Shown here: positions 41,324 through 42,806 of the stretch, piece after piece
Numbering within the stretch: position 1 is the first letter of the stretch
How the letters are laid out: each line of letters begins with the position of its first letter
Assembly (NCBI RefSeq): GCF_002729955.1
Contig: NZ_PBYA01000004.1
Span: forward strand, 115,424 to 179,423
Direction of reading: 5' to 3'
Source of the DNA: Salinisphaera sp.
GTDB lineage: Bacteria > Pseudomonadota > Gammaproteobacteria > Nevskiales > Salinisphaeraceae
Length of the DNA: 64,000 bases
The notes under the pieces: model-generated
What the model saw: only the letters and a program-made list of their open reading frames with translations
The model's database searches: none
What the model was told of the DNA's origin: nothing
Program-made: the position numbers and the translations under genes

Positions 41324-41442
41324 TTGGGGGTTTTCCTTCGCAGCGCACTCCCCTACTGGGCCACATCTATTTCTGGAGTTAATTCAGAAAACGGGCGCTT
41401 CGAGCTACACGTTTTTCAGCACTCACGAGTTTATCGAACCCT

Positions 41443-41700
41443 CGGTTTCGCACTGCTGTGCGACTCCCTTTCGTTTGCTCGTCCAAACGAAAGGAAGCAA
41501 AGAAAAAGACGCCCGGGTTACGCGTCGGCGCTGCGCGCCGAACCACTGCCAGAGCAATAAGAAGTTCTCGGGCCGAAGGGTGCGGCAAAAACTCGGGCGG
41601 CTTTCGCCGCCCTCAAACACCTTGCCGCACCGGCGCAGTGCGCCGGGAACCCTTCGGCCCTGTGCTTCTCGTTCGCTTCACACGGGGCCTGAATACAGAC
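41443..41700 (+). repeat. Multi-hairpin intergenic element, copy 1
   Basis: Ordered stems CGCAC-TGCT-GTGCG; CCTTTCGTTTG-CTCGTC-CAAACGAAAGG; CGGCGC-TGC-GCGCCG; nested GGGCCGAAGGGT..ACCCTTCGGCCC; ends GGGCCTGAATACAGAC. Confidence 0.75.
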
Positions 41701-41766
41701 GGGTAACCCATAGCAGTGAGTTGGTACGGCTACACACCGGAATCAAGGCTATTGGCTACGTTCTTG

Positions 41767-41797
41767 TCGGATTACGCCTTCGGCTAATCCGACCTAC
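41767..41797. repeat. Palindromic TCGGATTACGCC..GGCTAATCCGA repeat
   Basis: gtcggattacgccttcggctaatccgacctac; variant of the GGATTA/TAATCC palindromes at 24151 and 48532. Confidence 0.7.
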
Positions 41798-41832
41798 ACC
41801 AATCGTGACCTTGAGCGAGCGATAGCGAGCTT

Positions 41833-42051
41833 GTCTGTATTGGGCCCCTTGGGCGCAGCGCCGAGCAGCGCGGCCGGCAAGCGGAAAAGACGGCCGGATG
41901 TTTGAGCGCAGCGAGTTTCCGGCCGCCCCGCTTGCCGGCTGCGATGGGAGGGCATCGGCGCGTAGCGCCGACGCAAGACAGGGTGTCCTTTGCTTTGGTG
42001 ACTTTCATTTGGACAAGCAAATGAAAGTCACTCGCGCAGCAGCGCGAAACC
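41833..42051 (-). repeat. Multi-hairpin intergenic element, copy 2 (inverted relative to copy 1)
   Basis: Minus strand: CGCGC-TGCT-GCGCG; GTGACTTTCATTTG-CTTGTC-CAAATGAAAGTCAC; CGGCGC-TAC-GCGCCG; nested GCCGGCAAGCGG..CCGCTTGCCGGC; ends GGGCCCAATACAGAC. Confidence 0.75.
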
Positions 42052-42173
42052 ACAAGCCAAAATGCACCCCCTCAGTTGATTCAGACCGCACGCGGATTCG
42101 ATCTACGATCACCGCCGAACTCACGGACTCGGCTAATCTTGCATTTCGCGCCACAGCCGATTCGGGATATCCC

Positions 42174-42806
42174 ATGAACAAACCCCACACCATCGACTGG
42201 TACTTCGATTTCATCTCCCCATTCGCCTATTTCGCCTGGCAGCGCCTCGGCGAGTTCCGAGAGCACGCCGTGGTGGCCCATCGCCCCATCCTGTTTGCGG
42301 GCGTGCTGGCCCACCACGGTCAGAAGGGGCCGGCCGAAATCGACCCGAAACGACGCTGGACCTATCGCTGGTGTGCCTGGCATGCGCGCGAAAACGGGCT
42401 GGCGTTTCGCATGCCGGCCGCGCATCCATTCAACCCGTTGCCGTATCTGCGGCTGGCAATCGCGGCCGGCAGCACGGCGGAGGCGATCGACCGCATCTTC
42501 GACGGACTATGGACGACCGGCGTCGACCCGCAGGATCCGGCCGTGGTGCAGAGGCTGGCGCAGGCGCTGGACGTGGACCCGGCTGGACTCGCCGCGCCCG
42601 AGGTCAAACAGCAGCTGCGCGTCGAGACCGAGAACGCCTGCGCGCGAGGCGTATTCGGCGTGCCGACGCTCGCGATCGGCAACGAACTGTTCTGGGGTGC
42701 GGATGCGATGCCCATGGCCGCGCAGTATCTGGCCGATCCGGCCACCCTGGATGACGATGCCGAGATTAAGCGGGTGTCCGAGTTGCCCGTTGGGGCCATG
42801 CGGTGA
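42174..42806 (+). CDS. DsbA-family / 2-hydroxychromene-2-carboxylate isomerase-like protein
   Basis: IDWYFDFISPFAYFAWQRLGEF ... ACARGVFGVPTLAIGNELFWGADAM. Confidence 0.9.
   Translation: MNKPHTIDWYFDFISPFAYFAWQRLGEFREHAVVAHRPILFAGVLAHHGQKGPAEIDPKRRWTYRWCAWHARENGLAFRMPAAHPFNPLPYLRLAIAAGSTAEAIDRIFDGLWTTGVDPQDPAVVQRLAQALDVDPAGLAAPEVKQQLRVETENACARGVFGVPTLAIGNELFWGADAMPMAAQYLADPATLDDDAEIKRVSELPVGAMR

Follow-up and report, generated by a model that had tools for sequence, protein, structure and literature searches.

A large multi-hairpin intergenic repeat in Salinisphaera, folded around a conserved internal loop and with matches in several bacterial phyla

The region between a LysR gene and ileS in the 64,000-nucleotide stretch of the Salinisphaera sp. 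genome analysed here (the window) carries one copy of a repeat unit of about 670 bp, composed of an A half, a spacer and a B half and located at 41412-42083. A putative DsbA-like gene, identified as an open reading frame, follows the unit at 42175-42806. The limits of the unit are approximate and correspond to the segment, from about 41412 to about 42083, over which six copies of the host genome can be aligned before diverging outside. An inverted pair of diverged multi-hairpin elements had been recognized here in a sequence-only reading; the pair is real and all the stems then named are present at their positions, while it was missed that both members lie within one larger unit with conserved outer ends, that this unit is repeated genome-wide, and that the conserved loop motif is found on the minus strand of the A half and on the plus strand of the B half. 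The features of the unit are as follows (position, strand, description, basis).

41412..42083, no strand: whole unit, comprising left outer end, A half, spacer, B half and right outer end (six-copy alignment)
41412..41443, no strand: left outer conserved segment TTTTTCAGCACTCACGAGTTTATCGAACCCTC (kept in six copies of the host genome)
41444..41703, minus (strand of the loop motif): A half (nhmmer and covariance-model match, E 4e-27)
41448..41463, minus: hairpin gamma of A, TCGCAC-TGCT-GTGCGA on the plus strand (fold, alignment of A halves)
41464..41497, minus: hairpin beta of A (inverted repeat I4; double changes in the alignment of A halves)
41525..41541, minus: hairpin TCGGCGC-TGC-GCGCCGA of A, with the triloop GCA on the minus strand (sequence, fold)
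41570..41660, minus: alpha structure of A, with an outer 12-bp stem, a second stem, an internal loop and an inner 7-bp hairpin (inverted repeat I7, fold, double changes)
41590..41619, minus: core of A, minus-strand TGTTTGA (41613-41619) and GAGTT (41590-41594) flanking the inner hairpin 41595-41612
41766..41797, minus: spacer REP hairpin with a GTAG foot (sequence)
41833..42052, plus (strand of the loop motif): B half (nhmmer and covariance model, E 1e-60)
41873..41939, plus: alpha structure of B, with an outer 12-bp stem GCCGGCAAGCGG/CCGCTTGCCGGC, a second stem, an internal loop and a GC-GCA-GC cap (inverted repeat I2, fold, helices 1-3)
41899..41917, plus: loop motif TGTTTGAGCGCAGCGAGTT, found across bacterial phyla (exact match of the 19-mer)
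41955..41971, plus: hairpin TCGGCGC-GTA-GCGCCGA of B (helix 4, double changes in three pairs)
41998..42031, plus: hairpin beta of B (inverted repeat I3; helix 6, double changes in 9 of 12 pairs)
42032..42047, plus: hairpin gamma of B, TCGCGC-AGCA-GCGCGA (helix 7)
42048..42083, no strand: right outer conserved segment with the terminus GTTGATTCA (six-copy alignment)

The modules occur in the same order in each half: the alpha structure with its internal loop TGTYTGA/GAGTT, a GNA-capped hairpin, beta and gamma. The outer arms of alpha in A form a perfect 12-nt pairing (41570-41581/41649-41660), and beta has 13 of 14 bases paired in A (41464-41477/41484-41497) and perfectly paired arms of 14 nt in B (41998-42011/42018-42031). 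Read on the motif-bearing strand (the S strand, minus for A and plus for B), the constant part consists of TGTYTGA, a capped helix and then GAGTT, and the core is thus an internal loop between two helices which are variable but paired. The inner of these is mostly 7 bp long in A halves, where at least seven different paired sequences are found with caps that are mostly CAAA or GAAA, and in the parsed B halves is mostly GC capped by GNA or GNNA, being longer in others. GNA triloops are recurrent on the motif strand, and GC-GNA-GC is an exceptionally stable DNA mini-hairpin. A kink-turn reading of TGTTTGA/GAGTT was considered, and its fit is incomplete. The GTAG REP of the spacer is present in five of the six aligned copies of the host genome and absent from one unit (C37a).

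The fold of each half is much stronger than that of its dinucleotide shuffles (z -6.3 for A and -5.9 for B, with 0 of 200 shuffles as good for either). In an alignment of 37 B halves, 96.1% of the cells at 44 base pairs are paired and double compensatory changes are found at 24 of the 44, including a G-C to A-T change in gamma in 17 of the 37 copies. None of 500 shuffles reached any of these measures; the shuffles leave relatedness among copies in, and slid structures, which retain the same relatedness, give a pairing of only 32-45%. Several Watson-Crick types occur in many pair columns of 64 A and 59 B copies, and a covariance model built from B halves only detects the A half of the window (E 4e-27), with no other match across the 64 kb better than E 0.25, as well as copies in other genomes. 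A lack of significant covariation had been named as a result that would refute selection on a fold; against shuffles the covariation is significant, and the fold is preserved by compensating base-pair changes. An earlier single-anchor test of stem length around the 19-mer is weak because its control let stems float over 49 offsets, and was superseded by the covariance model.

The possibility that the element is a decayed coding gene, raised by the same reading, takes its only appeal from short ORFs that overlap the element. These ORFs lie in several frames, the stems carry compensatory changes and the same structure recurs across phyla without shared ORFs, which leaves this origin with next to no probability; no gene is present, and the element holds only short or host ORFs. 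No shared gene family was found beside or between copies among 1414 ORFs at 116 loci, except for ORFs overlapping the element and sporadic families. An autonomous version with genes between the halves was looked for, in a search that was not exhaustive, where inverted motifs lie far apart in Nitrospirales (L204), Clostridium (L293) and Flammeovirga (L301); the genes found between them are ordinary ones.

In the host genome, at least 23 half-unit matches were found with the covariance model and 33 places with BLAST of the unit, counts which derive from searches rather than from a reading of the whole genome. Many host contigs end within a copy, as is expected of a repeat that breaks assemblies. 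The family is present in all 14 genomes of the genus. The 76 stretches compared (the window and 75 fetched loci) contain mostly A and B halves that read convergently as the pair of a single unit and are separated by about 25-170 bp of spacer, either singly or in arrays; in some species both halves are of the A type. Dispersal in multiple copies is borne out by these searches.

The window site itself is vacant in genomes G007 and G008, in which the intergenic DNA lacks the element, and occupied in other species, which answers a search for empty sites suggested earlier. A minimal form is found at this site in G003 and G004, the latter having in addition one full and one partial unit, and a medium form in G006; the left outer segment adjoins the minimal and medium forms in all three. 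Such shorter forms may represent stages in either the loss or the growth of the element. The DsbA-like gene is missing in G004, where the junction lies inside the second, partial copy of the element. Several further loci are orthologous in a large part of the genus, and many copies, probably most, are therefore old and static. The two halves of a unit do not always diverge equally: the orthologous copies L010 and L052 are 98.4% identical in A and 80.5% in B, and two copies of genome G560 have nearly identical B halves and dissimilar A halves. We read this pattern in the sequences as exchange between copies, with gene conversion as the presumed cause. In two G560 loci (L404, L405) a different REP-like hairpin (GTCATTCCCGCGAAAGCGGGAATCCAG) stands in inverted copies on either side of an A/B pair. 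Copies of genome G588 have terminal inverted repeats, with a GGTGTYGGTTTCGGCC-like sequence at both ends; no target-site duplication was visible by eye beside four G588 copies or six copies of the host genome, and no movement of the element was seen in the genomes compared.

The distribution extends well beyond the genus. When 143 genomes of the class that had not been preselected were searched with a covariance model built from this genus alone, 33 gave full-length matches (E up to 1e-4), as a rule in large number, and many of the 33 have 14-18 matches among the matches listed. The exact 19-mer TGTTTGAGCGNAGCGAGTT is found in at least 116 genome-contig stretches of Bacteroidota, Bacillota, Pseudomonadota, Nitrospirota, Desulfobacterota and others, compared with about eight stretches expected by chance according to our estimate. 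An earlier remark on similar AAACTCGCTGCGCTCAAACA sequences in other proteobacteria is thereby extended to several phyla, with model matches across the class. The 19-mer is usually located at the tip of a stem of varying sequence, and is followed by a second hairpin, with a mostly pyrimidine-rich 5' arm, in 44 of 106 stretches versus 17 of 318 random ones. At loci preselected by the loop motif, model matches were obtained in Bacteroidota, Desulfobacterota, Nitrospirota and Pasteurellaceae, and the B-half model aligned over its full length in Variovorax (E 7e-29), Desulfuromonadales (6e-20), Nitrospirales (7e-19), Haemophilus (1e-12), Parabacteroides (6e-10) and Sphingobacterium (2e-7), E-values which are flattered because the loci were chosen by the 19-mer; the partner copies beside such loci were mostly not themselves chosen. 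The loop motif reaches 39 copies in Clostridium sp. KNHs205, 47 and 59 in two Flammeovirga genomes and 29 in Flavobacterium sufflavum, with almost none for a reversed pattern in the same genomes. Of 399 genomes in a sample of the phylum searched with the exact pattern, 17 gave a match, and every one of these belongs to the class of the window. Copies of the Lachnospiraceae type have only the loop and a long hairpin in common with the family and may represent a separate branch or convergence. KNHs205 (G078; L293-L297, L302, L303, L278) has a family of near-perfect hairpins of about 210 nt with the same apical loop, in which compensatory changes are visible between copies and which is perhaps a separate branch.

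The 19-mer was also encountered in viral contigs. The window unit as a whole gave no BLAST match to plasmids and phages. In three groups of filamentous-phage-like contigs (L315 2800-2818, L335 1779-1797, L349 1379-1397) the bare 19-mer is intergenic, preceded by GCGCCAG, and lies some 60 nt past a hairpin that has an ACGGGGGTA arm. The first of these has a Zot-like gene and resembles Vibrio inoviruses in its DNA, and its 19-mer is on the coding strand. Such occurrences fit single-stranded DNA but also mRNA. In two different viral contigs (L333 4753-4771, L362 8991-9009) GACCCTAGA directly precedes the 19-mer, with no matching stem after it, and in a cluster of 39 similar viral contigs (L306 2637-2655) the 19-mer lies within a putative phage replication gene and may be a coding chance or an origin feature. 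The exact 19-mers in L306, L374 and L381 may all be of coding or chance origin.

The S strands point outward in 31 of 32 close inverted pairs (one is convergent; p 1.5e-8, hand count), numbers that refer to copies and not to independent events. Relative to neighbouring genes the orientation of the motif strand is random (21 same, 24 opposite), and intergenic settings are biased towards gene ends, with 21 convergent, 30 tandem and 1 divergent in the genus and 20 convergent, 45 tandem and 7 divergent across phyla, all these strand and context tallies being based on a simple ORF chooser rather than on annotation. The copies thus avoid divergent promoters. Such a bias would be expected if the repeats were a passive family of palindromes, paired through template switching during replication, tolerated at gene ends and serving at most as terminators or mRNA 3' ends, and the near-perfect Watson-Crick stems and the nested forms at one site agree with this. 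That the loop, beta and gamma modules are invariant across phyla while stems vary freely, that pair geometry is fixed and that the multi-copy spread is patchy all speak against it, and we regard it as unlikely.

Earlier interpretation left two options, a structured non-coding RNA or a non-autonomous mobile element recognised by its hairpins; selection on a fold is supported and a DNA element is favoured. A multi-copy family of structured RNAs, in which each half would be transcribed along the motif strand as a small RNA or an element of untranslated regions, is in keeping with covarying helices around an invariant internal loop, with the RNA-like look of the GA/GA beside the inner helix and of the GNA caps, and with the excess of GT over AC in the stems of A halves (126:50). 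This excess is not seen in B halves (24:21) or in pan-phylum stems (12:11), unlike the acceptor stems of 17 tRNAs used as a control (GT 9, AC 0), a wobble pattern that may weakly favour DNA. Moreover, Rfam gave no match, the strand is random relative to genes, and copies are arranged as fixed divergent pairs and tandem arrays. An RNA family is accordingly possible but rather improbable. As to the form of the DNA, a single-stranded fold and a cruciform would be alike in sequence.

Among known DNA repeats the closest resemblance is to REPINs and BIMEs, which are likewise intergenic, biased to gene ends, arranged as inverted pairs with a short insert or in clusters, and vertically persistent. The halves described here, however, each comprise multiple hairpins and the conserved internal loop over about 190-260 nt, as opposed to a hairpin of 20-40 nt with a GTAG or CGTC foot, and the element shows no regular association with RAYT genes. 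Its two inverted hairpin units enclose a short insert, as in a REPIN, whereas RAYT genes flanked by the repeat are not the rule among carriers, and the 20-40 nt hairpin with a GTAG or CGTC tag is lacking in A and B, only the nested spacer REP having GTAG. The element is consequently REPIN-like but no REPIN by the definition tested. The spacer REP also occurs beside two Y1_Tnp (RAYT) genes of the host genome (L047 2874-3064, L048 2146-2243) and is probably a genuine REP of the RAYT-associated kind that sits inside the larger element. These REPs, the REPIN-like inverted pairs and the Y1_Tnp genes of most carriers might suggest a giant REPIN that a RAYT (Y1_Tnp) transposase mobilizes. Yet of 65 loci retrieved around Y1_Tnp hits, just 2 have the element nearby according to the model, both in one genome and one of them an IS200; seven carriers have no Y1_Tnp hit, two of these with at least 25 copies of the loop motif; and a GTAG or CGTC foot is absent from the module. 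RAYT was rejected as the motor, being not adjacent as a rule and not detected in the seven carriers, and a giant REPIN of this kind is very doubtful. The two cases among the 65 both come from G536 (L414 1133-2301, L415 1431-2596), where a copy of the element has a RAYT-like gene of 256 aa at a distance of about 200 bp and an IS200-like gene is some 550 bp away from a copy.

The other classes compared differ in further respects. MITEs such as ERIC and NEMIS are similarly ORF-less and long near-palindromic, with terminal inverted repeats as found in G588, but the present family shows no visible target duplication, a wide phyletic range and a structure kept by covariation. The end hairpins of IS200/IS605 elements are recognition sites in single-stranded form, and these elements make no target duplication; here, no tnpA lies inside, and the unit consists of two diverging halves. 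The GTAG and CGTC REP families are palindromic intergenic repeats (PMC3733652), compared to which the module is far larger and multi-hairpin and lacks a GTAG or CGTC terminus. Repeated stem-loop families, many intergenic, have been computed for bacterial genomes (Cozzuto et al. 2008, PMC2267715), among them Hin-1 of H. influenzae, built on uptake-signal repeats (PMC2267715); no family with the present loop was found in the text of that paper. In Rfam 15 nothing exceeded the curated gathering threshold for the window and 20 loci, and neither the loop nor the beta-hairpin sequence was found in the open-access papers searched. As far as these two sources go, the family is apparently unnamed.

The explanation we favour, with about even confidence, is that of an ORF-less dispersed intergenic element, a large REPIN-like non-autonomous DNA recognised as folded single strands by a factor acting in trans. 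The folded strand would become exposed as single-stranded DNA, for instance on the lagging-strand template, and an enzyme supplied in trans would recognise the alpha loop together with the inverted pair and, very rarely, copy or move the unit. Copies would afterwards be inherited in place, and half-units may be exchanged by gene conversion. A wider and more tentative possibility is that the TGTYTGA/GAGTT loop and its GNA-capped helix define a new pan-bacterial class of DNA replicator or chromosomal site. A host factor of wide occurrence would recognise it in its folded single-stranded DNA form, and some phages with single-stranded DNA would make use of it too.

For genome annotation, the covariance model (R1) provides a defined handle on the family. 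The repeat explains assembly breaks, as many host contigs end inside copies, and judging from the overlapping ORFs would also account for spurious hypothetical proteins. A near-invariant loop with freely changing but paired stems, in dozens of copies and several phyla, implies a shared and so far unnamed partner, the identity of which would reveal either a new way for repeats to persist in bacterial genomes independently of RAYT, or else an RNA or single-stranded DNA site of wide occurrence.
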